Shown here one piece after another: positions 6,312-24,719 of a stretch of DNA of 24,719 bases (position 1 is the first letter of the stretch; each line of letters begins with the position of its first letter). The stretch spans positions 1 through 24,719 of the forward strand of contig JAQMWT010000649.1 of NCBI GenBank assembly GCA_029834535.1, given 5' to 3'. A model generated the notes under the pieces. That model did no database searches. It was not told where the DNA came from and was given only the letters and a program-made list of their open reading frames with translations. Both the position numbers and the translations under genes were made by a program. Source of the DNA: Chrysophaeum taylorii. Lineage: Eukaryota; Sar; Pelagophyceae; Pelagomonadales; Pelagomonadaceae.

Positions 6312-7703
6312 AACCCTCGGCCGATCTTTATGGAAGTAAGGTTGTCGCGTGCGACGGCGATGGAGCCTTCGCCCGGCAAACGGGACGACGCGCTCGAGCC
6401 AGGGACGCTACGCGAGCCTCGACGCCGGCATGGCATGCCGGGGGGCTCCATCTTTTCTTTCGGGGTTCTTTCGGGCTTCTGGCGCGCGCAAAAATGCGAC
6501 GCGATTTCGCCTTTTTTCGCGCGAACTCTTCGGTACGCGCGATGCGCGCGATGCTGCCCGGCGTCTTCGTCGCCGCTGCGACCGGCCACCGAAATCGACA
6601 ACGGCTTGCCGCGCGCGCGTGACTCGCTCTTCCGACGGGACGTCCTCGAGAACGCGCGAGACCGAACGAGACGCGACGGTCGACTCGGTGGATCGACCAC
6701 CGTTTGACCTTCGTTACGATGCGTGCCGGCGGCTTCGTCGCCGCGAGCGCCCACCGCCGTCGCGACCGCGGACTCGGACTCGCCCGCGGGGTTCTGGCGC
6801 GCGCAAAAATGCGACGCGATTTCGCCTTTTTTGCGCGCGAACTCTTCGGTACGCACGCGCGCGATGCGTGCCAGCGCCTTCGTCGCCGCTGCGACCGGCC
6901 ACCGAAATCGAGAAGGGCTTGCCGCGCTCGCGTCTGCGGTCGAAGCCCGCTTCCACGGCTACGACTCGATCTTCCGACGGGCCGTCCTCGAGAACGCGCG
7001 CGACCGAACGAGACTCGACCGTCGACTCGGTGGATCGACCACCGTTTAACCTTCGTTACGATGCGTGCCGCCGGCTTCGTCGCCGCTGCGAGCGGCCACC
7101 GCCGTCGCGACCGCGGACTCGGACTCGCCCGCGGGTTGACGTCCAGACGACCAACCCGAAAAAAAACTCCGCGGCTCGCTCGACGGGCGGCGCTTCGATA
7201 CGATGCGTGCCGGCGTCTTCGTCGCCGCTGCGAGCGGCCACCGCCGTCGCGACCGCGGCCTCGGACTCTCCCCCGGCCGGCGTCGACGAAGGCCGCGACG
7301 ACGTCGCCGGCGCGACGAGTCTTCGAGCTCGACGCGTCTGCTACCGCGATTTCGGCTTGGTCGACGGTGGTCGCGCGACGTCCTGGGACTCGCCGCCTCC
7401 GCTTTGCCTTCTACGACAGACGCCCCGTCGTCGCCGCGACCGGTGCGCCTACGCGCCGACGACCCGCCCGCGCGCCCGCGCGCGTCCACGACGACCGCCC
7501 GTGCCGCGGTCTGGCCATCGCCGAGGGAACGGAGCCCGCACCCGAGTCGGTGCGCGCCAGCAGAGGCCCGGGAGGCCCTGGGGGGGGGCCTGGGGGTCCG
7601 GGGGTGTCCCCGGCGGGGGGTTTGGGGGGCAGAGCCCCCCAGCCGGGGGGTTCGGAGGGCTTGCCCCGAGAAAAGGACGGGAAAACCCGACTTGGCTTTA
7701 CTA
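6312..7703 (+). repeat. Array unit 4, type II GC-rich island (rearranged)
   Basis: The type II marker is as in unit 2. An internal duplication repeats the block beginning TTCTGGCGCGCGCAAAAATG (6477 and again 6791). An internal deletion relative to unit 2 removes the AT-richer 3' stretch, joining ...GGAGCCCGCA directly to CCCGAGTCGGTGCGCGCC. It ends in the G-rich hairpin run. No recognisable coding content. Confidence 0.8.
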
Positions 7704-8040: not shown

Positions 8041-8313
8041 TTGTTTGACTCTGTAGAGTAAAGGGTCAACGCTGATTTTTACTGTTCTCTAAGTTAGAAC
8101 CCAGTCCGGTACTGGTAGAGAAACGTCCTCCGAAAGACATCGATCTCGATCGACGTCTCGGACAAAGACCCAGGATTTCCAGGTAAGAGCAATCTCCTGA
8201 AGTTCCTGGAGTTTCCAAGACCGTAGTCAAGTCTCATCGCTTGCTACTGGTGAAAAAGTGTGAAAAAGTATGAAAGCAACCAACAACAGCGCGCAAAACG
8301 CAACCCCGAAAAC
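8041..8313. other. Leader of the gag-like insert, non-coding
   Basis: Sequence unrelated to the array, with mid GC content. It could be the 5' untranslated leader of the retroelement whose gag-like frame follows. A TGGTAGAG near 8114 resembles a tRNA-Met primer binding site, but no LTR is visible before it, so this is weak. Confidence 0.3.
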
Positions 8314-8826
8314 ATGGCGACTCACGACCCACAAGCCCCGAGTCTGGAATCAGCGACGCAATTCGCTACACCAATTGAGCTCCAAGCTCTCTGGCAACAG
8401 CTCCTAGATGATTTCTCTAATCGGATCGACACTGTTTTTGCTAATCTCAGAGCCAAACACGCTGCCGAACATGCTGCGCTCGCCGCAAGAACCGAAGCTC
8501 AAGACGAGCAACTCGACCAGGACGAGCAACTTGAACAAGCTTCTCCACCAGCCGTTCATACGGCAACCCCCCTCAAGCAAACTTCTCACGAAGTCGCGAC
8601 CCAAGACCCGATCATCTCGATGGTCACCCCCCCTCCTGCTGTTCGACACGTTCTCGAACATGGCCAACGCCCACCTTCTGCCGTCCACCCCACAGGATGT
8701 CAAACATCCCACGGCAAAGCCTCGGACCCCACTGCCTTCCCTCCGGACCCAGGCATAGCCAGGTTACTCCACAACCTGGCGCACCCCACATTCCCGAGGA
8801 CACTCCACCTTGTCCACAATAATTAA
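8314..8826 (+). CDS. Gag-like N-terminal fragment (putative LTR retrotransposon)
   Basis: This 170-residue frame begins at the ATG in AACATGGCG; an in-frame GTG lies upstream at 8260. Composition and third-position use differ from the surrounding array. Residues about 20-85 are hydrophilic and heptad-like (LQALWQQLLDDF, then Ala/Glu/Gln-rich), suggesting a coiled coil. The rest is Pro/His/Thr-rich. No zinc knuckle or protease follows. The frame runs into the linker boundary: its last residues (VHNN and stop) are encoded by CCACAATAATTAA, which belongs to the next repeat. It is therefore a 3'-truncated, chimeric reading frame. The gag identity is inferred from general character (N-terminal coiled coil, then Pro-rich) and not from a diagnostic motif; it could be a fragment of an unrelated gene. 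Confidence 0.4.
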   Translation: MATHDPQAPSLESATQFATPIELQALWQQLLDDFSNRIDTVFANLRAKHAAEHAALAARTEAQDEQLDQDEQLEQASPPAVHTATPLKQTSHEVATQDPIISMVTPPPAVRHVLEHGQRPPSAVHPTGCQTSHGKASDPTAFPPDPGIARLLHNLAHPTFPRTLHLVHNN

Positions 8827-9338
8827 TTGGGAAACGTCAGTGTGTCCGTGACAACACATTACCGGGCCTATACTTTCTGTTCTTATCCCTATGTATGCTC
8901 GAAACGGCCCGACAAAATCTGCGTTTTGTAAAGCCGATTTATTTCAAAACGCTTCACCCGCGGCCTACTTTCTGTTCTTTCGCTAATGTATGCGCCAAAA
9001 GTGTTGCTATTTATAAAATGTTTTCTTCATGGCATCAGCGAGAGCCGTGTAGTATCGGAGAGACCGAAGAAGTGTGAGCGAGAATCTGGGGTGGTTGCGT
9101 TGCGTACGTCTCGAGTTCGGATCCTGTTGGTCGATTTGCATGCTGAGTGTAGCCTGGGGAGTGTGGGTGACGACGATTTTCGGGTATGTGGGGCGCCTAG
9201 GTCTCTGGTTTCGAGTTCGAATCCCGTAGTAAATTGGACGCTGGTAGTCGTAAAAATCGAGAGTATTTCGAAGAAGAAAACCCTTAGTATTTCTAAAGAG
9301 AAAATCCTTACCCTTCTTCCTCTTTTTTTGCTATGCAA
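8812..9338 (+). repeat. Linker 5 (complete: hairpin, TATA, B-box module, AT tail)
   Basis: The most complete linker. It starts GTCCACAATAATTAATTGGG, carries the hairpin at 8921-8952, TATAAAATG near 9013, the two-B-box module, and the GTATTTCGAAGAAG tail running to AACCCTCGG at 9339. Confidence 0.75.
9036..9224 (+). other. tRNA-like or SINE-like module, linker 5
   Basis: B-box-like motifs GTTCGGATCC (9115-9124) and GTTCGAATCC (9215-9224) with the same spacing as in linker 4. This copy shows the unbroken sequence CTGGTTTCGAGTTCGAATCC, which is the empty site of the copia insertion at 13143/13144. Confidence 0.35.
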
Positions 9339-10678
9339 AACCCTCGGCCGATCTTTTTTGAAGTAAGGTTGACGCGTGCGACGGCGATGGAGCCTTCGCC
9401 CGGCAAACGGGACGACGCGCTCGAGCCAGGGACGCTACGCGAGCCTCGACGCCGGCATGGCATCGCATGCCGGGGTTTTTCTTTTTTGATGTTCTTTCGG
9501 GGTTCTGGCGCGCGCAAAAATGCGACGCGATTTCGCCTTTATTCCGCGCGAACTCTTCGGTACCGCGCGATGCGTGCCGGCGTCTTCGTCGCCGCTGCGA
9601 CCGGCCACCGAAATCGAGAACGGCTTGCCGCGCTCGCGTCTGCGGTCAAAGCCCGCTTCCACGGCTACGACTCGCTCTTCCGACGGGACGTCCTCGAGAA
9701 CGCGCGCGACCGAACGAGACTCGATTGTCGACTCGGTGGATCGACCACCGTTTGACCTTCGATACGATGCGTGCCGCCGGCTTCGTCGCCGCTGCGAGCG
9801 GCCACCGCCGTCGCGACCGCGGACTCGGACTCGCCCGCGGGTTGACGTCCAGTCGACCAACCCGAAAAAAAACTCCGCGGCGCGGCGCGCCGCCGATCGT
9901 CGAGCTCGACGCGTCCGCCAGCGCTTCGATACGATGCGTACCGGCGTCTTCGTCGCCGCTGCGAGCGGCCACCGCCGCACGCGGCGACGACCGCGACGAG
10001 CGCGCCGCGCGCCGACACGCCGACGACCGGCCGCGCGCCCGCGCGCGTCCACGACGACCGCCCGTGGCCGCGCTCTGGCCATCGCCGACGGAGACGAAGA
10101 CCTCCCCGCTCGCGTCTACGGCGAAGCCCGCTTCCACGGCCACGCCTCGCTCTTCCCGCTGCGGCCGTTCTCGCCGCGAGAACCTCTGGGCCGTCGACCG
10201 CGACGGCGCGTCCGCTATCTATGGATTATGCGCCACGCCCTCCTTCTCACTACGCCCGCCGCCACCCCACCCCGGCGCCTACACCAAAAATATTGTCTAT
10301 AAGGAAATACTCCAATAAAGAAAGCGGCCATCCGCCATCACATAATCCATCCGCAAAAAACGTAAAGCCGAAAATAAACAGGCATAACGCTAACCCCCAG
10401 AACGCTTCTCGCAACGGAAAGCAAGGAAAACGGTACACACCCTAACCCAAGAACGAAAAATTGCGCAGAAATCTTCGAGAACCGATAAGACTGAATTTCC
10501 ACGGCGTGCGACGGCGTTTTTGGTCGGCTCCCGAGACGCGACGGCCCTCGAGGCGGTGGGGGGTCCGGGGGTGTCCCCCGGCGGGGGGTTTGGAGGGCTC
10601 TGCCCCCCAATTCCCGGGGGGGTCGGGGGGCTTGCCCCCCGAGAAAAAGGCCGGAAAAAACCCGACTTGGCCTTACTA
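9339..10678 (+). repeat. Array unit 5 GC-rich island
   Basis: The leader variant (CATGGCATCGCATGCCGGGG then a T-rich run) differs from types I and II. The 3' half follows type I. Two GATACGATGCG blocks are present (near 9764 and 9927). It ends with the hairpin run at 10557-10642 and CTTACTAGTCCACAATAAT. Confidence 0.8.
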
Positions 10679-10707
10679 GTCCACAATAATCCACAACAAG
10701 TGCAGGC

Positions 10708-11037
10708 CAGTAAGTTCACCTAGTCCCAATCTCTAACCCCAGTAAGTTCACCTGGTCCCAGTAAGTTCACCTGGTCAGTAAGTTCACCTAGTCCAAATCT
10801 CTAACCCCAGTAAGTTCGGCGTAAACCCACTCGTGCTCACACCACTCCTTCGAGCTCGTCGCTCTCGCCTCCGCCAATCTAAGCTGCTTTGATCCGCACA
10901 CGCCGCTAACCTTTGAGTTTACTCTAAAAACCCCAGTAAGTTCACCTGGTCCCAGTAAGTTCACCTGGTCACTATATTCACCTAGTCCCAATCTCAAACC
11001 CCAGTAAGTTCACCTGGTCCCAGTAAGTTCACCTACA
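10708..11037 (-). repeat. Iteron-like array AGTAAGTTCACCT, unit 1
   Basis: Eight exact copies of AGTAAGTTCACCT (+ strand reading) and two altered copies, mostly in the context CCAGTAAGTTCACCTGGTC, in two clusters around a unique 130-bp core (about 10810-10930). CCAG...CTGG at its edges makes each copy a weak palindrome. Confidence 0.8.
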
Positions 11038-11640
11038 GTGCGCGTAGACGCCGGGAGGGGGCTTATCGGTATTGCGCAGCACGTGTGGAGTAGGGTGGAG
11101 TCGTCGACCAGAAGAGGATATCCTCGGGTTGCCGATCGACAGAGAGCCACGTAGAGCTGGACGTGGCAGAAGACGGGCTTCGCCAAGAGGACGCCGACCT
11201 CGCGGGGCGTCTGGCCCTGGCTCTTGGTGATCGTTTGGCGTCGGCGGGCCTTAAGGGATACAGGTTGGAGGAGCCTCGGTGACAACGACACGATCGATCA
11301 TGTATCTGGTACCGTTGCAGTGGCCGTGCGACGGGTCGAGGTTGCGAAGACTTTAAGCTCGCGATCAAAGTCAGCATGCCGTTGGTTGTCAGGGAGTTCA
11401 AAACTCGACTGTAAAGAGCGAGGCGTCGTCTTCCGACCCAACCTAGTCGGCCGAAAAGAACTCCGACGCCTCGTCTCCGGGAAAAAAGGCCGCGGTCATG
11501 CGCGCGTTGTCAGCATCGACAACATCGTTTCGACGGGGCGTGAGAATGGCGCGCTGAAAGAGCCGCCGCGGGTCGTGGGAACAGTCTGCGAGGTCGCCGT
11601 AGACGGCTTGGAGGATCAATGCCTGCCTGGCTCGCGGGCC
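11038..11640 (-). pseudogene. Helitron Pif1-like helicase, C-terminal fragment
   Basis: Read in the - direction, conceptual frames give ILxPRxNDVVDADNARM, then FLNSLTTNGM, then TKSQGQTPREVGVLL and FCHVQLYVALCRSAT. These match the C-terminal half of Helitron/Pif1 superfamily 1B helicases: the new-nucleotide-binding block, then the motif V/VI region, where the family usually has KSQGQT and VFSHGQLYVALSR. The block normally encoding the LKxGxPVMLLRN and NGTR segments is missing or destroyed, and frames shift several times. The N-terminal Walker motifs and the HUH endonuclease are absent. Ser in the final SR has become Cys. It is not functional as a helicase. Confidence 0.7.
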
Positions 11641-12069
11641 TACCTGATCCTTACCCTAAATCGAGGGACAGACAGACAAACATCTGTCGATTAGTAGTTA
11701 GGATAATTAACAAGTGAAGGCCAGTAAGTTCACCTACTCCCAATCTCTAACCCCAGTAAGTTCACCTGGTCCCAGTAAGTTTCTCGAATTTTTTTGAATA
11801 AGTAAGTTCACCTAGTCCAAATCTCTAACCCCAGTAAGTTCGGCGCAAACCCACTCGTGCTCACACCCCACTCCTTCGAGCTCGTCGCTCTCGCCTCCGC
11901 CAATCTAAGCTGCCTTGATCCGCGCACGCCGCTAACCTTTGAGTTTACTCTAAAACCCCCAGTAAGTTCATCTGGTCCCAGTAAGTTCACCTGGTCACTA
12001 AGTTCACCTATTAATTCCCATCTCAAACCCCAGTAAGTTCACCTGGTCCCAGTAAGTTCACCTACAGTG

Positions 12070-12670
12070 CGCGTGTAGACGCCGGGAGGGGGCTTATCGG
12101 TATTGCGCAGCACGTGTGGGGTAGTGTGGAGTCGTCGACTCAGAAGAGCATATTCTCGGGGTTGCCGATCGACAGAGAGCCACGTAGAGCTGGACGTGGC
12201 AGAAGACGGGCTTGCGGGCAAGAGGACGCCGACCTCGCGGGGCGTCTGGCCCTGGCTCTTGTTGATCGTTTGGCGTAGGCGGGCCTTAAGGGATACAGGT
12301 TGGAGGAGCCTCGGTGACAACGACACGATCGATCATGTATCTGGTACCGTTGCAGTGGCCGTGCGACGGGTCGAGGTTGCGAAGACTTTAAGCTCGCGAT
12401 CAAAGTCAGCATGCCGTTGGTTGTCCATGAGTTCAAAACTCGACTGTAAAGAGCGAGGCGTCGTCTTCCGACCCAACCTAGTCGGCCGAAAAGAACTCCG
12501 ACGCCTCGTCTTCGGGAAAAAAGGCCGCGGTCATGCGCGCGTTGTCAGCATCGACAACATCGTTTCGACGGGGCGTGAGAATGGCGCGCTGAAAGAGCCG
12601 CCGCGGGTCGTGGAAATAGTCTGCGAGGTCGCCGTAGACGGCTTGGAGGATCACTGTCTGGCTCGCGCCT
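12070..12670 (-). pseudogene. Helitron helicase C-terminal fragment, second copy
   Basis: Same fragment as in unit 1, with INKSQGQTPREVGVLL and a frameshifted PVF.H.QLYVALC block. It ends just before the iteron array. It differs from unit 1 by small changes (for example CCATGAG for CAGGGAG) and is equally decayed. Confidence 0.65.
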
Positions 12671-12692
12671 ACCTGATCCTTACCCTAAATCG

Positions 12693-12736
12693 AGGGACAA
12701 ACAGACAAACAAACAAACAGACAGACAGACAAACAT
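12693..12736. repeat. (GACA)n/(AACA)n microsatellite
   Basis: A short tetranucleotide run near the 5' end of Helitron-like unit 2. It is longer here than in unit 1 (11668-11682), and its counterpart lies at about 21338-21385 in the right arm. Confidence 0.8.
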
Positions 12737-12756
12737 CTGTCGATTAGTAGTTAGGA

Positions 12757-13143
12757 TTGGGAAAACGTGAGTGTGTCCGTGAGGAAACATTACCGGCCCT
12801 ATACTTTCTGTTTTCGAGAATGTATGCTCGAAACGGGCCGACAAAATCTGCGTTTTGTAAAGCCGATTTATTTCAAAACGCTTCACCCGCGGCCTACTTT
12901 CTGTTCTTTCGCTAATGTATGCGCCAAAAGCGTTGCTGTTTATAAAATGTTTTCTCCTTGGCATCTGTGAGAGCCTTGTAGTATGGGAGAGAGCGAAGAA
13001 GTTTGAGAGAGAATCTGGGGAGGTTGCGTTGCGTACGTCTCGAGTTCGGATCCTGTTGGTCGATTTGTATGCTGAGTGTAGCCTGGGGAGTGGTGGGTGA
13101 CGACGATTTTCTGGTATGTGGTGCGCCTAGGTCCCTGGTTTCG
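12757..13143 (+). repeat. Linker 6, interrupted by Helitrons and copia
   Basis: Hairpin at 12850-12881, TATAAAATG near 12943, first B-box-like motif near 13041, then CCTAGGTCCCTGGTTTCG, where the copia LTR begins. The second B box of the module is not found on the far side because the copia copy is truncated by the inverted junction. Confidence 0.75.
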
Positions 13144-13239
13144 TGTGAGGAAGCTATGACACTTACCCCTGCACCACGTATCCAGTATCCTTACGTCTTT
13201 CTCTTATCGCTAGTCTAACGCCTCATTCCATTCGTAACA
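13144..13239 (+). repeat. copia 5' LTR, + copy
   Basis: 96 bp, TGTGAGGAAGC...CGTAACA, with TG...CA ends. It is identical base for base to the LTRs at 16915-17010 and 20834-20929 in reverse complement. Very short for a copia LTR. Confidence 0.9.
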
Positions 13240-13254
13240 TGGTAGCAGGTGCAG
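13240..13254 (+). promoter_or_regulatory. Putative primer binding site
   Basis: TGGTAGCAGGTGCAG follows the LTR directly. TGGTA matches the 3' end of initiator methionine tRNA, the usual copia primer. Confidence 0.6.
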
Positions 13255-13349
13255 CGTTCGTTCGTTTCGATCGAACCTGCGCTTGACTTCACGGCGACTC
13301 CTCATCGGCTTCAGTTCATTACTACGTGTTCGGTTCGTTATCGTTTATC

Positions 13350-13805
13350 ATGTCCTCGATCGAAATTAAGGATAGCAAGCTATCGCAAAAACTCGATGCT
13401 TTCAGTGGTGAGCGACATCTTTTTCACCAATGGACCCGGCGCCTTGAAAACATGATCATTTCCACCGGTGATCGCATTATCTTGACCACTGACACTTGGA
13501 CTAGCATTTCCGCCTCTGGCTGCTCTGAAGAAGAATTTGGTCTCAAGCAGCAACGCTGGTACAGTGCACTCTTCATGGCGCTACCAATGCATGATACTGA
13601 TCGTGCGGATATCCGTGAAAACCGCGATATGAACTTCACGCGGCTTTACAAGCGCATTACTGATGTTTACATGGGTCATGGAGATCGTCTCGCTCAGTCT
13701 GCAATTGCTTCACTGCATTCCTTGGTGTGCAACAATATCGATGAACTTGAGTCTTTTCTTAACAAGTTCATCACTGGTGTTCAAGTTGCTCGGCATTGTA
13801 CCTGA
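13350..13805 (+). CDS. gag: copia gag-like N-terminal region
   Basis: 151 residues from ATG at 13350 to TGA at 13803. The early segment (WTRRLENMI, then LYKRITDVYMGHGDRLAQSAIASLHSL, then ELESFLNKF) has the helical look of copia Gag (UBN2-type), where a substrate-like fold precedes an RNA-binding tail. No CCHC zinc knuckle follows; the downstream sequence is frameshifted and Pro/Ser-rich. It is the better copy of gag: the mirrored copy in the right arm has lost the first 50 or so codons, including this start. Identity is supported mainly by position between primer binding site and integrase. Confidence 0.55.
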   Translation: MSSIEIKDSKLSQKLDAFSGERHLFHQWTRRLENMIISTGDRIILTTDTWTSISASGCSEEEFGLKQQRWYSALFMALPMHDTDRADIRENRDMNFTRLYKRITDVYMGHGDRLAQSAIASLHSLVCNNIDELESFLNKFITGVQVARHCT

Positions 13806-14084
13806 TCCGACGCACCCTCGAGTGTGTCCTCGCATTTGACTACGTGCATCGTGCTTTAAGCCTTACTGGCTTTGTTTTATCGTCTCGCGTTTCGTACCGA
13901 TGAATGTGGTTGTACCCTTGAGAAGCTCAACAACAACCAATTTCGATGGCATGCACAACTACTTCCGCCGCTCTATCCGCCGCGTCGTCAGCCACCAGAC
14001 TCTTCCAAGCTGATGCAAGCACATCAACAACCCCATCCCACGGAAGCCCCTCGTTTTTTTGTTTTTAGCTCCCATTGCACAGGC

Positions 14085-14285
14085 GCCTCGTTCTGTATTT
14101 TCCGCTATTCGTTGCTCAACCCTCGTTCTGTATTTTCACCTCGTCGTTGCTCCACCCTCATTCTGTATTCTCCCTCGTCGTTGCTCCTCCTCGTTCTGTA
14201 TTTCGCCTATTCGTTGCTCCACTCCCCGTTGTGCATTTTCAGCTATTCGTCGATCCACTCCTCGTTGTGCTTGTCGGTTTTGGTA
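14085..14285 (+). repeat. Degenerate 33-36 bp tandem repeat inside copia
   Basis: About five or six copies of a CTCGTTCTGTATTTTC...GTTGCTCCAC unit. The mirrored copy (about 19985-20200) has the same repeats but with longer C runs. In one frame it encodes an RSVFS-RRCST-like repeat. It fills the region where protease and the integrase core would be expected. Confidence 0.75.
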
Positions 14286-14429
14286 AAACCAGCGAATCAC
14301 ATTCCATCGCGCATCTCACCTGCCACAACTAAGCCGTGCCGGTCAATTTTTCGCGTGCGCAGTTTTCGTGCTTCCTATGTGGTTGGATCGCTCATCTTCG
14401 GGATCCTGGACAGACGCTTCTTTGCTGTG

Positions 14430-14960
14430 TGATTTGTGGTTCTCCTTCACGCACTTTTTCGCCGCTTTTCTGACCTTAAAATTCGGTTTTGCTATCGACG
14501 TGAATTCCGTGCTCAGCACCCGCGACGCTATCTGCAATGTTCTTACGTGCCACTGCGACGCTATCTGCAAGCTATCTGCGACGTTCTTACGTGCCACAAC
14601 TGTTTTGCCACTGTCGCCAACTTCTACCGCAGTCTATTCGAGTATGACGAGCGAAGCTCGCGTCCACCTGATTTTTGGCGTTGGGCCATGGAAACGGCTG
14701 ACTTCATCTCTGAGCGTATGCCAAATGCCTCTAATCCTGGATATATGACGCCATATGAAATGCTACATGAAACACTCCCGCGTGTCGATTTTCTTCGTGT
14801 TTGGGGCTGTCCTGCTGCAATTCTTACTGGCGACAAATGGCCTACCAAAGCTATAACCGGTATCTTCATTGGGTATCCCTCTGCAGGCCCTGGATACCGC
14901 ATATTGCTTCAACGCCCCACAGGTCCTGTCATCCACACCTCGATTGATGTTGTTTTTGAC
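14430..14960 (+). pseudogene. copia integrase, C-terminal part (+ copy)
   Basis: The frame gives FWRWAMETADFISERMPN, then TPYEMLHETLPRVDFLRVWGC, KAITGIFIGYPSAGPGYRIL. This is the characteristic copia integrase stretch after the catalytic core (WxxAxxxAxxLxNRxP, TPYExL, LRVFGC, GYS). The upstream DDE core and HHCC zinc finger are not found. Instead 14520-14600 holds a short tandem duplication (CGACGCTATCTGCAA... twice). This copy cannot supply integrase activity. Confidence 0.8.
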
Positions 14961-15059
14961 GAAAATTTCGCTCTGCGTAAGTCACTGTCCGCTCAACCCC
15001 TTCCTCCGTCTCTAGTGGATTCTCGTTTTCCTGACTTGTTTATTACGACCCTCGTTTAT

Positions 15060-15545
15060 CTTCGGCCGTGGCCCCAATGTCTTCTGTTTTTGATGCTCCG
15101 GAGCCGCCTTATCGGGACTGATCACCCCTGAACAACTCAACCGTCACTGAAACACTGTTACCGGACAATACGAAACGTGCACCATTACGTCGTGCCAAAC
15201 GGGGCCGACCGCGCAAAGTCGACCAACGCGCGTTACAACAACCAACAAACTTTTTTTACGGGCCATTCTGTTTCATCCTGTCACAATGTCGATACGGGCC
15301 ATTCTGTTTCCTCCTGTCACGATGTTGATTCTGTTTCCTCTGTCGCTTCTGTTTCCCCCTGTAACTCTTTGTATGTCTCTTCTGTTAGCTTTCGTTTGTT
15401 AGTTCATTATGTCTTCCTTCACCTTTGTTTAGCTAACACCCTTGTTGATCCCCATGCACACGTTTATTACTCTGCTTCCGAAGAAATTTCACAATATTCC
15501 CACCTTGACGAAAACACTATTACTTCCGCCATTTACGTGAAGCTT
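15060..15545 (+). pseudogene. copia integrase-RT linker (+ copy)
   Basis: Frame-broken counterpart of the linker at 18731-19204. It contains a 36-bp direct duplication (GGGCCATTCTGTTTC ... at 15261 and 15297). One frame still carries the basic AKRGRPRKVD segment. Confidence 0.55.
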
Positions 15546-16845
15546 TGCTCCGACCATCCTGAGCGTCTGGCTGGTTGCAAGCCATCGCTAAAGAATGCAG
15601 CTCTCTTGGTCAGCTTGGTTGCTGGGATGTTATTCGCCTTCCGGTCGACGTTTTCTGGCAACATTTGTACCCTCAAGGGATCCTCGCAAGAAGTATGACT
15701 CTGGCCGCTTCAAATCGTACAAGGCTCGCCTCGTGTCCGCGGTTACACCCAGGTTCACGGCATTGATTATCATGACACCTACTCACCGGTTGCCAACATC
15801 GTCACGATCCGTTTCGTTCTAACCTTTGTCGCTGTTCATGACTGGGATTTGCACAAGTTGGATGTCAGCTCGCTTTTATTCAAGCTCCCATTGACGAAGA
15901 CATCTATGTCTGGCCACACGAAGGTCATGCTCCTCGCCAACCCACTGATGTTTCCAAAATCGTTACAAGCTCCGTCGCTCTTGGTATGGTTGCAAACAAG
16001 CTTGTCGTAGTTATTGGCTTTATTTGGAACGCTTCCTTCTCAATGATTGTGGATTCGTCCGCGGATCTGGTGACACTTGCCATTACAAGCTCGTGCTCAA
16101 TTCTACCGTCCTTCTACGTCTCGTTCTGGTCGTTGATGATCTTCTTGTGGCGCACCCTCGTCATTGCATTGGCCATTACCAAGCTTTTTCCTCCGTTTCC
16201 GCGCTTTCACTGACGTCAATGAACTTGACTCTCATCTTACGTTGGTCTTCGCATTACCCCCCGCGTGATCGCCTCGGAGAACCCTCACTCTTGACCAATC
16301 CCATCTATCCTGGAAATCACTTACGAACATCGCTTCATCAACAGTAAAACCGAACTCACCCCCGCCCCCAAAGGTCTTCATCTTTCTGCGGATGATTGTC
16401 CTACATCCTGGTTTCCAGATCACATTTTCATGGCACGCATCCCTTTTCGCGTATTGTTGGCTGTGTCATCTTCATTTCCATCATGACTCGCCCTGATAGA
16501 CTTGGCCGTCCAATCAGGTTGCGCGTTTTTCCCCAAATTCCTGGTAAACCCCACTGGCACGCTGTATCCACACCTGGCGTTTATATCAACGGTAATCAGG
16601 ATCTTGCCCTTATTCTTGACGCGATTCTACTCTTCATATCTGTGGTTATTTTCCGATTGCTCCAGCTGGGCGAAGACTTCTGATGACGCCACTCTACACT
16701 GGTTTTTTGTTTTCCCTTGCTGGCTCTATGATAGCCTACTGCATCACGCTACGCAGTACCTCCTCGCCGCTCTGTTCTTTTTGAAGACTGAATTGCTCGC
16801 TCTTACGCTGTATGTGAGCTCTCTTGGCTTCTCAAATTGAGCTTG
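15530..16845 (+). pseudogene. pol: copia reverse transcriptase-RNase H (+ copy), heavily frameshifted
   Basis: Collinear with the right-arm copy at 17353-18740, but broken into fragments of under 115 residues by one-base losses (for example GACCATCC against GACCAATCC, GTCTGG against GTCCTGG, CCTCGTGTC against CCTCGTTGTC). Fragments of the finger region, the VDD active-site strand and RNase H are still readable in different frames. The RNase H end is lost at 16917. Confidence 0.8.
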
Positions 16846-16914
16846 ATCTCCCTCGTCACACGGTCCTACCCAATGATGTTGATAATAGACCCCCGTCACC
16901 AAGTTCGTCCTCAA

Positions 16915-17010
16915 TGTTACGAATGGAATGAGGCGTTAGACTAGCGATAAGAGAAAGACGTAAGGATACTGGATACGTGGTGCAGGGGTAAGTGTCATAG
17001 CTTCCTCACA
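16915..17010 (-). repeat. copia 3' LTR, - copy
   Basis: 96 bp, TGTTACGAATGG...TTCCTCACA on the + strand. Identical to the 5' LTR at 20834-20929. Confidence 0.9.
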
Positions 17011-17105
17011 CAGGTGCTGGAAAAGAAGAAAAGGAAAAAGGGGTAAGTGAGGTCCTCACACAGGTGCTGGAAAAAGAAAGAAAAAGGGTAAGTGAGACGC
17101 TCACA
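17004..17105 (-). repeat. Duplicated 50-bp segment and pyrimidine tract next to 3' LTR
   Basis: Two tandem copies of CCTCACACAGGTGCTGG...AAGGGGTAAGTGAG. In the element's sense they read as a long C/T tract followed by CCAGCACCTG, so the purine-rich second-strand primer expected just before a 3' LTR is absent. Confidence 0.75.
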
Positions 17106-17277
17106 GAGGAGAAGCTTTGAGGAAGACGTCACAGAGGCATTGTGGCAAGAAAACAGCAGAGATCAGGGCGAAGATCACGAAGTGAGGTAAAGAGCACGAA
17201 GCCGGAGGAAGGAAGGAGCTTCCGTACTGCGGGTGAAAATGTCGCTAAGATTGTGAAGGCGGGGTATGTGTTTGAGA
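17011..17277. other. Untranslated 3' region of - strand copia
   Basis: Purine-rich on the + strand, with no coding signal. It is the only long stretch of the copia element that has no mirror in the left arm, together with the LTR and the end of RNase H. Confidence 0.6.
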
Positions 17278-17769
17278 TCAAATGATGTGGTTGCGATGAT
17301 ATTCGGCGGTACTGTAAAAGCGAATGTCAATATGGCGGGTGCGCCGTGTGAGACATTGGAGACGGACTTGGGTGACGGTGGTGCTATTATCAACATACAT
17401 TGGGACCGTGTGACGAGGGAGATCAAAGTCATCAAAAAGTTTGAGAAGCCAAGAGAGCTCAGCAGTAGCAGCGTAAAGAGCGAGCAATTCAGCTTCAAAA
17501 GAAGAGCGAGCAAGTAAGTACTGCGAGCGGGAGCAGTAGGCTATCATAGAGCCAGCAAGGAGAAAACAAAAACCAGTTGTAGAGTGGCGGTCATCAGGGT
17601 CGTCGGCCCAGCTGGAGTCGGAATAACCACAGAGACGAAGGGTAGAATCGCGACCAAGAATAAGGGCAAGATCCTGAGAACCGTTGAGATAACGCAGAGT
17701 GTGGGATAAAGCGTGCCAGTGGGGTTTACCAGGATTGTGGGAAAACGCGCACACTGATTGACGGACCAA
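17278..17769 (-). pseudogene. copia RNase H (- copy)
   Basis: 163 codons open. The motifs LRYLNGSQDLALIL, GYSDSSWADDPDDRHSTTGFC, SQYLLARSSFEAELLAL and YVDNST follow the copia RNase H pattern, in which the family shows GYsDaDWAgd..RkSTsG, SStEAEYxAL and cDNxs. The catalytic acidic residues (Asp in YSD, Glu in FEAE, Asp in VDN) are present. It lies in a different frame from the reverse transcriptase, with the switch near 17745, so one frameshift separates the two domains. Confidence 0.85.
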
Positions 17770-18701
17770 GTGATATCAGGGCGAGTCATGATGGAGATGA
17801 AGAGGACACAGCCAACAATACGGCGAAAAGGGATGCGTGCCATGAAGATGTGATCTGGAGAACCAGGAGCAGGACAATCAGCCGCAGAAAGATGAAGACC
17901 TTTGGGAGCGGGAGTGAGTTCGGGTTTACTGTTGATGAAGCGATGTTCGGTAAGGATTTCACGGATAGCATGGGATTGGTCAAGAGTGAGGGTTCTCCGA
18001 GGGCGATCACGCGTAATGCGAAGACCAACGTAAGAGGTGAGATCAAGTTCATTGACGTCAGTGAAAGCGCGGAAACGGAGGAAAAAGGCTTGGTAATGGC
18101 CAATGCAATGACGAGGGTGCGCCACAAGAAGATCATCAACGACCAAAACGAGACGGAGGACGACGGTAGAATTGAGCACGAGCTTGTAATGGCAAGTGTC
18201 ACCAGATCCGCGGACGAAGCCACAATCATTGAGAAGGAAGCGTTCCAAATAAAGCCACCAATTACGACAAGCTTGTTTGCAACCATACCAAGAGCGACGG
18301 AGCTTGTAAACGATTTTGGAACCATCGGTGGGTTGGCGAGGAGCATAGCCTTCGGGTGGCCAGACATAGATGTCTTCGTCAATGGGAGCTTGAATAAAAG
18401 CGGAGCTGACATCCAACTTGTGCAAATCCCAGTCATGAACAGCGACAAAGGTTAGAAAGAAACGGATCGTGACGATGTTGGCAACCGGTGAGTAGGTGTC
18501 ATGATAATCAATGCCGTGAACCTGGGTGTAACCGCGGACAACGAGGCGAGCCTTGTACGATTTGAAGCGGCCAGAGTCATACTTCTTGCGGAGGATCCAC
18601 TTGAGGGTACAAATGTTGCCAGAAAACGTCGAAGGAAGGCGAATAACATCCCAGCAACCAAGCTGACCAAGAGAGCTGTATTCTTTAGCGATGGCTTGCA
18701 A
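17544..18701 (-). pseudogene. pol: copia reverse transcriptase (- copy), best preserved gene of the window
   Basis: 385 codons open. The N-terminal KARLVVRGYTQVHGIDYHDT and YSPVANIVTIR, then LHKLDVSSAFIQAPIDEDIY, VWPPEGY, RRSWYGCKQACRNWW, LVVDDLLVAHPR, GLRITRD and MTRPDITW follow the copia RVT_2 domain in order. The active-site motif is VVDD where copia usually has YVDD; the two aspartates remain. The last 65 or so codons are a frameshifted version of the RNase H entry. Upstream, one frame break separates it from the linker at 18731. RNA-dependent DNA polymerase for element replication is the family role; this copy could be active only if the frame breaks are sequencing errors. Confidence 0.9.
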
Positions 18702-18730
18702 CCAGCCAGGACGCTCAGGATTGGTCGGAG

Positions 18731-19204
18731 CTAAAGCTTCACGTAAATGGGTGGAAGTAATAGTGTTTCGTCAAGGTCTGAATACTGAGACATTTCTTCG
18801 GAAGCAGAGTAATAAACGTGTGCATGGGGATCAACAAGGGTGTTAGCTAAACAAAGGGGAAGGAAGACATAATGAACTAACAAACGAAAGCTAACAGAAG
18901 AGACATACAAAGAGTTACAGGGGGAAACAGAAGCGACAGAGGAAACAGAATCAACATCGTGACAGGAGGAAACAGAATGGCCCGTATCGACATTGTGACA
19001 GGATGAAACAGAATGGCCCGTAAAAAAGTTTGTTGGTTGTTGTAACGCGCGTTGGTCGACTTTGCGCGGTCGGCCCCGTTTGGCACGACGTAATGGTGCA
19101 CGTTTCGTATTGTCCGGTAACAGTGTATTCAGTGACGGTTGAGTTGTTTCAGGGGTGATCAGTCCCGATAAGGCCGGCTCCGGAGCATCAAAAACAGAAG
19201 ACAT
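18731..19204 (-). pseudogene. copia integrase-RT linker with AT-hook-like segment
   Basis: 157 codons open, between integrase and reverse transcriptase. RRAKRGRPRKVDQR contains the GRP core of an AT-hook with basic flanks, and could equally serve as a nuclear localisation signal at the integrase C terminus. It is followed by the duplicated TGHSVSSCHNVD/TGHSVSSCHDVD segment and a Ser/Val-rich stretch. A frame break separates it from the integrase part on one side and the reverse transcriptase on the other. Confidence 0.65.
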
Positions 19205-19265
19205 GGGGCCACGGCCGAAGATAAACGAGGGTCGTAATAAAACAAGTCAGGAAAACGAGAATCCA

Positions 19266-19913
19266 CTAGAGACGGAGGAAGGGGTTGAGTGGACAGTGAC
19301 TTACGCAGAGCGAAATTTTCGTCAAAAACAACATCAATCGAGGTGTGGATGACAGGACCTGTGGGCGTTGAAGCAATATGCGATATCCAGGGCCTGCAGA
19401 GGGATACCCAATGAAGATACCGGTTATAGCTTTGGTAGGCCATTTGTCGCCAGTAAGAATTGCAGCAGGACAGCCCCAAACACGAAGAAAATCGACACGC
19501 GGGAGTGTTTCATGTAGCATTTCATATGGCGTCATATATCCAGGATTAGAGGCATTTGGCATACGCTCAGAGATGAAGTCAGCCGTTTCCATGGCCCAAC
19601 GCCAAAAATCAGGTGGACGCGAGCTTCGCTCGTCATACTCGAATAGACTGCGGTAGAAGTTGGCGACAGTGGCAAAACAGTTGTGGCACGTAAGAACGTC
19701 GCAGATAGCTTGCAGATAGCGTCGCAGTGGCACGTAAGAACATTGCAGATAGCGTCGCGGGTGCTGAGCACGGAATTCACGTCGATAGCAAAACCGAATT
19801 TTAAAGGTCAGAAAAGCGGCGAAAAAGTGCGTGAAGGAGAACCACAAATCACACAGCAAAGAAGCGTCTGTCCAGGATCCCGAAGATGAGCGATCCAACC
19901 ACATAGGAAGCAC
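19266..19913 (-). pseudogene. copia integrase, C-terminal part (- copy)
   Basis: 215 codons open. The diagnostic block WRWAMETADFISERMPN, TPYEMLHETLPRVDFLRVWGCPA, GIFIGYPSAGPGYRIL occupies the second half. The first 90 or so residues (Phe/Leu-rich, with a duplicated RRYLQ segment) do not resemble an integrase core and lack the HHCC finger and DDE triad. The catalytic part of integrase is therefore missing and the element would depend on integrase from another source. Confidence 0.8.
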
Positions 19914-20478
19914 GAAAACTGCGCACGCGAAAAATTGACAGGCACGGCTTAGTTGTGGCAGGTGAAATGCGCGATGGAACGTGATTCGCTGGTTTTACCA
20001 AAACCGACAAGCACAACGAGGAGTGGATCGACGAATAGCTGAAAATGCACAACGGGGAGTGGAGCAACGAATAGGCGAAATACAGAACGAGAAGGGGAGC
20101 AACGACGAGGGGAGAATACAGAATGAGGGGTGGAGCAACGACGAGGTGAAAATACAGAACGAGGGGTTGAGCAACGAATAGCGGAAAATACAGAACGAGG
20201 CGCCTGTGCAATGGGAGCTAAAAACAAAAACGAGGGGCTTCCGTGGGATGGGGTTGTTGATGTGCTTGCATCAGCTTGGAAGAGTCTGGTGGCTGACGAC
20301 GCGGCGGATAGCGCGGCGGAAGTAGTTGTGCATGCCATCGAAATTGGTTGTTGTTGAACTTCTCAAGGGTACAACCACATTCATCGGTACGAAACGCGAG
20401 ACGATAAAACAAAGCCAGTAAGGCTTGAAGCACGATGCACGTAGTCAAATGCGAGGACACACTCGAGGGTGCGTCGGA

Positions 20479-20775
20479 TCAGGTACAATGCCGAGCAACT
20501 TGAACACCAGTGATGAACTTGTTAAGAAAAGACTCAAGTTCATCGATATTGTTGCACACCAAGGAATGCAGTGAAGCAATTGCAGACTGAGCGAGACGAT
20601 CTCCATGACCCATGTAAACATCAGTAATGCGCTTGTAAAGCCGCGTGAAGTTCATATCGCGGTTTTCACGGATATCCGCACGATCAGTATCATGCATTGG
20701 TAGCGCCATGAAGAGTGCACTGTATCAGCGTTGCTGCTTAAGACCAAGTTCTTCTTCAGAGCAGCCAAAGGCGGA
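20479..20775 (-). pseudogene. gag: copia gag-like region lacking its start (- copy)
   Basis: 76 codons (20479-20709) match the C-terminal half of the left-arm gag frame exactly in the readable part (LYKRITDVYMGHGDRLAQ). Just upstream the sequence jumps from GCATTTCCGCC to CTGCGCTTGACTTC, deleting about 212 bp that hold the start codon and first 50 residues. Confidence 0.75.
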
Positions 20776-20818
20776 AATGCTTGAAGTCAAGCGCAGGTTC
20801 GATCGAAACGAACGAACG

Positions 20819-20833
20819 CTGCACCTGCTACCA
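20819..20833 (-). promoter_or_regulatory. Putative primer binding site (- copy)
   Basis: CTGCACCTGCTACCA on the + strand, i.e. TGGTAGCAGG in element sense, directly next to the 5' LTR. Confidence 0.6.
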
Positions 20834-20929
20834 TGTTACGAATGGAATGAGGCGTTAGACTAGCGATAAGAGAAAGACGTAAGGATACTGGATACGTGGT
20901 GCAGGGGTAAGTGTCATAGCTTCCTCACA
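20834..20929 (-). repeat. copia 5' LTR, - copy
   Basis: 96 bp, identical to the other two LTRs. Its outer edge is fused to the tRNA-like module at CACGAAACCAGGG. Confidence 0.9.
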
Positions 20930-21317
20930 CGAAACCAGGGACCTAGGCGCACCACATACCAGAAAATCGTCGTCACCCACACTCCCCAGGCTACACTCAG
21001 CATACAAATCGACCAACAGGATCTGAACTCAAGACGTACGCAACACAACCACCCTAGATTCTCGCTCAAACTTCTTCGCTCTCTCCGATACTACAAGGCT
21101 CGCCGCAGATGGCAAGAAGAAAACATTTTATAAACAGCAACGCTTTTGGCGCATACATTAGCGAAAGAACAGAAAGTAGGCCGCGGGTGAAGCGTTTTGA
21201 AATAAATCGGCTTTACAAAACGCAGATTTTGTCGGCCCGTTTCGAGCATACATTCTCGAAAGAACAGAAAGTATAGGGCCGGTAATGTTTCCTCACGGAC
21301 AGACTCACGTTTCCCAA
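20930..21317 (-). repeat. Linker 6 mirrored
   Basis: Reverse complement of 12757-13143 with B-box-like, TATA and hairpin (21192-21223) parts, ending at CCCAA where the first Helitron-like unit starts. Confidence 0.8.
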
Positions 21318-21409
21318 TCCTAACTACTAATCGACAGATGTTTGTCTCTCTGTCTGTTTGTTTGTTTGTCTGTTTGTCCCTCGATTTAGGGTAAGGATCA
21401 GGTAGGCGC

Positions 21410-22000
21410 GCGAGCCAGGCAGTGATCCTCCAAGCCGTCTACGGCGACCTCGCAGACTGTTTCCACGACCCGCGGCGGCTCTTTCAGCGCGCCATTCTCA
21501 CGCCCCGTCGAAACGATGTTGTCGATGCTGACAACGCGCGCATGACCGCGGCCTTTTTTCCGGAGACGAGGCGTCGGAGTTCTTTCGGCCGACTAGGTTG
21601 GGTCGGAAGACGACGCCTCGCTCTTTACAGTCGAGTTTTGAACTCCCTGACAACCAACGGCATGCTGACTTTGATCGCGAGCTTAAAGTCTTCGCAACCT
21701 CGACCCGTCGCACGGCCACTGCAACGGTACCAGATACATGATCGATCGTGTCGTTGTCACCGAGGCTCCTCCAACCTGTATCCCTTAAGGCCCGCCTACG
21801 CCAAACGATCAACAAGAGCCAGGGCCAGACGCCCCGCGAGGTCGGCGTCCTCTTGCCCAAGCCCGTCTTCTGCCACGTCCAGCTCTACGTGGCTCTCTGT
21901 CGATCGGCAACCCCGAGGATATGCTCTTCTGAGTCGACGACTCCACCCTACCCACACGTGCTGCGCAATACCGATAAGCCCTCCCGGCGTCTACACGCGC
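21410..22000 (+). pseudogene. Helitron helicase C-terminal fragment (right arm, unit 2)
   Basis: Best frame for the first half: LQAVYGDLADCFHDPRRLFQRAILTPR and NDVVDADNARMTAAF, a clear match to the Helitron helicase segment that in the family reads yxdxxylxeRaILxPxNxxVdxiN. Later frames hold INKSQGQTPREVGVLLPKPVF and QLYVALCRSATP, the motif V/VI region. At least two frame changes occur, and the piece between FLNSL and INKSQGQ is too short. The N-terminal ATPase motifs and Rep domain are not in the window. Confidence 0.75.
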
Positions 22001-22009
22001 ACTGTAAGT

Positions 22010-22350
22010 GAACTTACTGGGACCAGGTGAACTTACTGGGGTTTGAGGTTGGGATTAGGGATTAGGTGAACTTAGTGACCAGGTGAACTTACTGGGACCA
22101 TGTGAACTTACTGGCGTTTTAGAGTAAACTCAAAGTTAGCGGCGTGCGCGGATCAAAGCAGCTTAGATTGGCGGAGGCGAGAGCGACGAGCTCGAAGGAG
22201 TGGGGTGAGCACGAGTGGGTTTACGCCGAACTTACTGGGGTTAGAGATTTGGACTAGGTGAACTTACTTATTCATTGTCGAGAAACCTACTGGGACCAGG
22301 TGAACTTACTGGGGTTAGAGATTGGGAGTAGGTGAACTTACTGGCCTGCA
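22010..22350 (+). repeat. Iteron-like array, right arm unit 2
   Basis: Repeated AGGTGAACTTACTGG motifs in two clusters around the same unique core (AAAGTTAGCGGCGTGCGCGG region). One copy is altered to ACCATGTGAACTTACTGG. Confidence 0.8.
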
Positions 22351-22361
22351 CTTGTTAATTA

Positions 22362-23365
22362 TCCTAACTACTAATCGACAGATGTTTGTCTGTCTGTCCC
22401 TCGATTTAGGGTAAGGATCAGGTAGGCCCGCGAGCCAGGCAGGCAGTGATCCTCCAAGCCGTCTACGGCGACCTCGCAGACTATTTCCACGACCCGCGGC
22501 GGCTCTTTCAGCGCGCCATTCTCACGCCCCGTCGAAACGATGTTGTCGATGCTGACAACGCGCGCATGACCGCGGCCTTTCCCGGAGACGAGGCGTCGGA
22601 GTTCTTTTCGGCCGACTAGGTTGGGTCGGAAGACGACGCCTCGCTCTTTACAGTCGAGTTTTGAACTCCCTGACAACCAACGGCATGCTGACTTTGATCG
22701 CGAGCTTAAAGTCTTCGCAACCTCGACCCGTCGCACGGCCACTGCAACGGTACCAGATACATGATCGATCGTGTCGTTGTCACCGAGGCTCCTCCAACCT
22801 GTATCCTTAAGGCCCGCCGACGCCAAACGATCACCAAGAGCCAGGGCCAGACGCCCCGCGAGGTCGGCGTCCTCTGGCCAAGCCCGTCTTCTGCCACGTC
22901 CAGCTCTACGTGGCTCTCTGTCGATCGGCAACCCCGAGGATAGCCTCTTCTGGTCGACGACTCCACCCTACCTCACACGTGCTCCGCAATACCGATATGC
23001 CCCTCCCGGCGTCTACACGCGCACTGTAGGTGAACTTACTGGGACCAGGTGAACTTACTGGGGTTTGAGATTGGGACTAGGTGAATATAGTGACCAGGTG
23101 AACTTACTGGGACCAGGTGAACTTACTGGGGTTTTTAGAGTAAACTCAAAGGTTAGCGGCGTGTGCGGATCAAAGCAGCTTAGATTGGCGGAGGCGAGAG
23201 CGACGAGCTCGAAGGAGTGGTGTGAGCACGAGTGGGTTTACGCCGAACTTACTGGGGTTAGAGATTTGGACTAGGTGAACTTACTGACCAGGTGAACTTA
23301 CTGGGACCAGGTGAACTTACTGGGGTTAGAGATTGGGACTAGGTGAACTTACTGGCCTGCACTTG
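22362..23365 (+). mobile_element. Helitron-like unit 1, right arm
   Basis: Mirror of 10697-11703; starts TCCTAACTACTAATCG directly after TTAATTA and ends CACTTG, then TTGTGGATTATGGGGACTAG of the island flank. Confidence 0.65.
22440..23020 (+). pseudogene. Helitron helicase C-terminal fragment (right arm, unit 1)
   Basis: Same fragment as 21410-22000, with TITKSQGQTPREVGVL followed by a frameshift and an altered QLYVALC block. The Thr-Lys-Ser variant (ITKSQG) also marks left unit 1, confirming that unit order is mirrored. Confidence 0.7.
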
Positions 23366-24719
23366 TTGTGGATTATGGGGACTAGTGGCAAGTCGGGTTT
23401 TTTACGGATTCCCTGGGGGGGCAAGCCCCGACCCCCCGGGAAATTGAGGGGGAGAGCCCTCGCCACAAACCACCCGCGGGGGGCACCCCCGGAACCCCAC
23501 CAACTCGAGGGGCCGTCGCGTCTCGAGGAGCCGACCAAAAACACGCAGTCGCACGCCGTGGAAATCGGGTTTTATCGGTTCTTGAAGATTGTCTGCGTAA
23601 TTTTGCGTTCTTGGTTAGGTGTGTAAGGTTTCCTTCCTTCGTTGCGCGAAGCGTTCTGGGGGTTAGCGTTATGCCTGTTTATTTTCGGCTTTGCATTTTT
23701 GGGGATGGAACTATGTGATGGCGGATGGCCGCTTTCTTAATTGGAGTATTTTTCCCTATAGAAATAAAATTTTTGGTGTAGGGCGGCCGGGGTGGCGGCG
23801 GGGCGTGTGAGAAGGACGGGCGTGGCGCGTAATCCATAGATAGCGGACGCGCCGTCGCGGTCGACGGTCCAGAGGTTCTCGCGGCGAGGACGGCCGCTGC
23901 GGGAAGAGCGAGGCGTGGACGCGGAAAAGGGCGTTTCGCCGTAGACCGCGAGCGGGGAGGTCTTCGCGTCTCCGTCGGCGATGGCCAGAGCGCGGCCACG
24001 GGCGGTCGTCGTGGACGCGCGCGGGCGCGCGGCGGGCGGCGGAGGCGTCGGCGCGCGCGCGCTCGTCGCGGTCGTCGCCGCGTGCGGCCGTGCCGACTCG
24101 CAGCGGCGCCGAAGGGGACGCCGGTGCGCCTCGAATCGAAGGCGCTGGCGCGCACGCGTCGAGCTCGACGAATCGCGACGGCGCGCCGCGCGCGGCGATT
24201 TTTTTTCGGGTTGGTCGACTGGCGTTTTCTACCGCAGGGGAGAGAGTCCGAGTCCGCGGTCGCGACGGCGGTGGCCGCTCACGGCGACGAAGCCGGCGGC
24301 ACGCATAGTATCGAAGCGTGTCGCGACACGGCGGCGCGATAACAGCGCCGACATCTCGAGTCTCGTTCGGTCGCGCGCGTTCTCGAGGACGTCCCGTCGG
24401 AAGAGCGAGTCGTAGCCGTGGAAGCGGGCTTTGACCGCAGACGCGAGCGCGGCAAGCCGTTCTCGATTTCGGTGCCGGTCGCAGCGGCGACGACGCCGGG
24501 ACGCATCGCGCGGTACCGAAGAGTTCGCGCGGAAAAAGGCGAAATCGCGTCGCATTTTTGCGCGCAGAACCCGAAAGAACATCGAAAAAGAAAACCCCGG
24601 CATGCGATGCCATGCCGGCGTCGAGGCTCGCGGCGTCGGCTCGAGCGCGTCGTCCCGTTTGCCGGGCGAAGGCTCCATCGCCGTCGCGTCAACCTTACTT
24701 CAAAGATCGGCCGAGGGTT
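23366..24719 (-). repeat. Array unit 5 mirrored, cut by window end
   Basis: Reverse complement of 9339-10690, with the hairpin run at 23411-23500, the AT-richer tail around 23580-23800, and the leader with CATGGCATCGCATGCCGGGG. It carries more small deletions and substitutions than the rest of the arm. Long frames on both strands are again without domains. Confidence 0.8.

Follow-up and report, generated by a model that had tools for sequence, protein, structure and literature searches.

The stretch of Chrysophaeum taylorii DNA analysed here (the window) is the entire contig C649 (JAQMWT010000649.1), 24,719 b long, from an assembly of 70.8 Mb in 697 contigs. It contains a giant inverted repeat built around a copia element, and the sequence evidence suggests that this palindrome is an assembly artefact, most likely absent from the genome of the organism (probability about 0.86). 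Five observations support this conclusion: the right arm runs to the end of the contig, the arms differ by insertion/deletion (indel) noise, this noise is complementary between them, the junction lies at the edge of a long terminal repeat (LTR), and a similar arrangement is present in another contig, C386.

The inverted repeat itself is present as sequence, with a left arm of 7579 b (9339-16917) and a right arm of 7367 b (17353-24719) separated by 435 b (16918-17352). BLAST aligned 9339-16917 with 24719-17353 in two blocks of 93.6% and 95.4% identity, a similarity far beyond chance, and the sole large break between the blocks was a stretch of 211 b found in the left arm only (13292-13502). BLAST and alignment thereby bore out the coordinates of an initial annotation, made from the sequence alone, which had described arms of about 7.4-7.6 kb and a 435-bp spacer. 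That annotation had also raised the question of whether 24719 is close to the contig end. It is the contig end itself, so that the right arm extends to the final base and has no independent outer flank; flanking sequence is present beyond the left arm, and there is none beyond the right one because the contig stops. Within the arms lie a GC-rich repeat unit, two paired repeats of 1 kb, another repeat and the copia element. The features are as follows.

9339..16917, + strand: left arm, with flank repeats and a truncated copia element (BLAST, alignment)
17353..24719, - strand: right arm, matching the left arm in reverse complement and extending to the final contig base (BLAST, alignment)
16918..17352, - strand: the 435-b 'spacer', which is the 3' end of the right-arm copia element, including nearly all of its 3' LTR
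13143..16917, + strand: left copia element, with its 5' LTR at about 13143-13239, 435 b short of the 3' end
16914..20930, - strand: right copia element, with both outer LTR edges, lacking 211 b near the 5' end
13292..13502, + strand: 211-b stretch of the left arm only
15301..16917, + strand: noisy inner end of the left arm, with small indels increasing toward the junction
23400..24719, - strand: noisy outer part of the right arm, up to the end of the contig
16910..16922, no strand: junction, where the left arm meets the outer edge of the 3' LTR, with TGT (16915-16917) common to both

A Pfam scan confirmed a copia-type reverse transcriptase in the arms (RVT_2, PF07727, E 3.1e-37), and we take the element to be a Ty1/copia LTR retrotransposon. 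Compared with full-length copies in C300 and C454, the left copia element begins at about 13143, with its 5' LTR, and breaks off 435 b before the 3' end. The right one lies on the minus strand between LTR edges at 20930 (5') and about 16914-16915 (3'), with an LTR at either end (about 20833-20930 and 16914-17010). Since the left element is cut 435 b short and the right one reaches its 3' LTR edge, the spacer is not foreign sequence but the piece of copia that is absent from the left arm. The arm junction coincides with the outer 3' LTR edge of the copia element, and TGT is shared by both sides. The right element has different 5-b flanks beyond its LTR edges (TTTCG and TTGAG), and therefore no target duplication marks a simple insertion of this element. 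Among the 40 of 2348 candidates that were scored, the flank together with the start of the 5' LTR (12600-13160) had a full-length match only at the two arms. An exact 20-base string spanning the 5' flank and the LTR start occurred only twice in the 70.8-Mb assembly, once per arm. This excludes two independent insertions, as the initial annotation had argued, among other things from the common copia insertion point.

The arm copia elements resemble Ty1/copia retrotransposons in their reverse transcriptase and their LTRs of about 97 b, and a 5-b target duplication was seen at the C300 copy. They are unlike the C300 and C454 copies in being shorter overall and in carrying an internal stretch (13797-14660) that is absent from both of these and is found, whole or in parts, in many other contigs. 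A 35-b tandem array lies within it at 14086-14266.

A gap-tolerant global alignment of the arms had 7704 columns, of which 7090 were identical and 152 were substitutions. There were 186 gaps, 140 of them of a single base; 96 lay in the left arm and 90 in the right arm, where four were fragments of the 211-b gap. This divergence is not of the ordinary mutational type, as the ratio of substitutions to gaps was 152:186 between the arms versus a median of 46:9 in ordinary copia pairs, which were scored in the same gap-tolerant way but with end gaps free. The balance depends on gap costs. MAFFT with ordinary gap costs gave 325 substitutions and 97 gaps, a substitution-rich divergence that we first read as mutation near the break. 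This reading was rejected, because the balance reverses with gap-tolerant scoring and many of the MAFFT substitution sites are backed by family members on both sides, making them pairs of compensating small indels. Divergence was uneven, being low in 10839-15338 and high at both arm ends. Even in the well-matched middle (10839-15300) there were 46 substitutions and 48 gaps between the arms; 41 of the 48 gaps were of 1-2 bases, and 31 of the 48 were homopolymeric. The differences between the arms thus look read-like (small indels) rather than mutation-like, most clearly in the copia element and less so in the outer flank.

We also compared the 1.5 kb of copia nearest the junction in each arm with 14 distinct other copies of the element, using the 91 pairs among these copies as a control. 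The left arm differed from the 14 copies by a median of 55 substitutions and 71 indels (indel range 67-82), the right arm by a median of 27.5 substitutions and 5 indels (range 2-19), and the control pairs by medians of 46 and 9 (indel range 0-31). The single-base gaps that the initial annotation had taken to favour an artefact do point that way: in the bad part of the left arm they are in strong excess over other copia copies. Identity of the left-arm copia dropped toward the junction (0.944, 0.919, 0.873 and 0.837), whereas that of the right-arm copia was steady at 0.970-0.985. At the opposite end of the arms we used a profile of the contig in 300-b windows, in which windows without any reference are blank and the reference set may hold overlapping loci. 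Small indels in the right arm from 23401 onward came to 10-37 deletions and 14-36 insertions per kb, compared with 0-7 of each in the left-arm windows starting at 9301-10501, apart from one window with 14 and 11. The noise is complementary, in that each arm has one bad end and the other arm is better over that stretch.

A genuine duplication partly homogenised by gene conversion, which the initial annotation had offered for the uneven divergence, could account for divergence that is low in the middle and high at both ends. We consider it extremely unlikely. Unconverted old sequence should resemble ordinary copies, whose differences are dominated by substitutions, but near the junction the left-arm copia alone deviates from the family, mostly by small indels that grow in number toward the junction. 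At the outer end the same is seen with the arms swapped, although less cleanly.

A similar arrangement in C386 came from a list of copia ends, which showed two opposed copia copies in that contig with the second one reaching the contig end. Its inverted repeat has arms at 117551-122829 and 124830-130006 (5.3 and 5.2 kb) that are 96.5% identical around a 2,000-b spacer. The arms differ by 36 substitutions versus 92 indels, 79 of which are of 1-2 bases, and 78 of the 92 are gaps in the arm at 124830-130006, which ends with the contig. The fold at 124830 is the edge of a repeat family: among the 17 other matches listed there, 14 stop at query position 1433 (124831) and the remaining 3 extend to 1461. 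A check of contig ends, which covered copia copies extracted as loci, placed the end of C373, the start of C396 and the end of C386 exactly at copia LTR edges. A further possibility is that real fold-back inverted duplications, bounded by copia LTRs, arise repeatedly at repeat edges in this genome, as in C649 and C386, perhaps at chromosome ends, with the noise due to poor assembly there; we regard this as quite unlikely.

An artefact could have arisen as follows. One locus, comprising the GC-rich repeat, the repeat pair and copia, would be represented twice in one contig in opposite orientations. The assembler may have placed a strand-switched copy after the copia element, either because a chimeric read folded back or because sequences were misjoined at a repeat boundary. 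Reads used for correction would then have gone to the better-fitting arm, those with the left flank choosing the left arm and those with the true 3' end of copia choosing the right arm, so that the tail of the left copia element and the outer flank of the right arm would have stayed uncorrected. One molecule or two haplotypes could have supplied the arms, and the join would be false either way.

PMC12870357 documents artefact reads of the fold-back type from nanopore and PacBio sequencing, which are said to tangle assembly graphs and give false variant calls. C649 is like the reads described there in that its second half repeats the first as a reverse complement, and unlike them in being known from a finished contig alone. 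Long artificial inverted repeats in long reads, which harm assembly, are also described, in PMC6218980, as palindromic chimeras from whole-genome amplification, and C649 likewise has a long inverted repeat. The initial annotation had left the choice between a fold-back duplication and an artefact, leaning to the latter. The artefact is indeed favoured, but its proposed origin, one molecule read through both strands, is not shown, because the junction lies at an LTR edge and 435 b are unpaired, so a pure strand turn is not demonstrated. The junction is explained no less well by a misjoin at the repeat edge. As a whole, that annotation is partly supported; it was silent on the LTR-edge junction, on the 211 b missing from the right arm (it spoke of single-base gaps only) and on the like ending of at least one other contig.

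A true inverted duplication, formed for example by end fusion or template switching, with arms poorly polished because the copies compete for reads, is unlikely. It could account for the length of both arms, for a private deletion of 211 b in the right arm and for the lack of any convincing contig with the expected ordinary right flank. Other inverted copia pairs do exist in the assembly, one of them with clearly substitution-type divergence. Moreover, PMC7229812 describes real inverted duplications whose nanopore base calls deteriorate after the junction has gone through the pore, and C649 is like the cases described there in having inverted arms with base-calling errors and missed bases. It is unlike them in being noisy before the junction and clean right after it, where the sequence is at its best, whereas the known decay starts only past the junction. 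A real junction at normal coverage should be clean on both sides; reads crossing it would polish the left side, yet the worst copia sequence lies there and the right side is clean. C386, likewise at a contig end and dominated by indels, also argues against a true duplication.

The position of the junction at an LTR terminus, as after integration, is also what a nested insertion would give. In this case the right copia element would have truly inserted, inverted, into the left one at about 16914, and only the flank at 20931-24719 would be false. Close inverted pairs of this copia do occur elsewhere in the assembly. We judge this very unlikely, since the left element is noisy right up to the junction and both elements share their 5' flank. 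The right element also has differing 5-b flanks, though a false flank would hide a duplication.

Several results weigh against an artefact. If the join is false, the true 3' flank of the copia element (the LTR edge followed by the TTTCG duplication) is expected elsewhere unless it was left unassembled. An exact search for the LTR edge plus TTTCG did not convincingly find this ordinary right flank. It gave one match, at C145:101719, in a copy that is rearranged and about 97.5% identical to the right arm and is probably a different copia element. The right arm has its private 211-b deletion, of which random read error is not an easy source; among the 44 other matches listed for 13100-13700, 39 span these 211 b at full length. 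The deletion suggests two different molecules rather than two passes over one, and falsely joined arms from two haplotypes or two cells would fit. In the middle region, substitutions between the arms lean to transitions (25 of 46). The noise was measured from contig sequence alone, without reads or depth, and its comparison at the outer end is weaker than that in copia. Indel-rich windows also occur elsewhere in the contig, for example at 6601, 7201, 7501 and 11551 (2-5 references) and at 1501 (13 references), and the first 450 b of the contig carry 7-10 deletions and 11-20 insertions per kb. As stray windows of this kind arise where references are few or distant, it is the copia comparison, with its many close references, that carries the argument. 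Finally, four other inverted copia pairs, for which the reference sets may hold overlapping loci, were not all noisy. The substitutions and indels between their arms were 152:38 in C202, 43:18 in C113, 13:5 in C389 and 24:18 in C688, so that C202 is dominated by substitutions and the others are mixed. The substitution-type divergence of its second arm suggests that the C202 pair is probably genuine and old. The same noise in other inverted copia pairs, considered as an assembly-wide sign, was rejected, as only C386 matched clearly.

Until reads confirm the right arm, users of this assembly should not count it as sequence or as another copia insertion, nor cite it in support of a palindrome. 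If the C649 palindrome is an artefact, it is ordinary apart from its warning about such contig ends. The signature consists of complementary indel noise relative to other repeat copies, a contig end inside one arm and a fold at a repeat edge. It is computable from contigs alone, and it pointed to C386 without raw reads.

The repeat pair within the left arm lies at 10695-11682 and 11709-12711, its members being 94% alike. The initial annotation had called it a Helitron pair. Helitrons are recognised by a Rep/helicase protein or by defined TC/CTRR ends. The pair is genuine as a repeat, but the Helitron label is unconfirmed, as the two open reading frames (ORFs) scanned from the 1-kb units had no Pfam match. 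A search of the window against Rfam gave no match at or above the gathering score. Outside the arms, 8254-8826 holds an ORF of 190 amino acids without a Pfam match, within a stretch that has relatives in about 40 places.

Tail-to-tail pairs of the arm copia were seen in C113, C202, C48 and C664, with 3' LTR edges about 40, 0, 185 and 185 b apart, respectively (the spacings of about 185 b being extrapolated). Such pairs may reflect a target preference. In C145, at about 103491, a copia copy has its 3' region fused to an oppositely oriented segment of the gag region.

General haplotig duplication was also considered and was not evident from one family alone, that of the RNA polymerase large subunit. 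This domain had full- or near-full-length matches in C171, C373, C317 and C697, and those in C171, C373 and C317 were not near-identical to one another (best DNA matches of 70-89% over 35-250 b). C25 and C521 were matched by the same queries at nearly parallel coordinates with equal rounded identity. They may be redundant or haplotype contigs, in which case the assembly would contain some redundancy. In C697 (103,599 b), RNA polymerase large-subunit matches lie at both contig ends on the same strand, and this contig is possibly a circular plastid-like genome.

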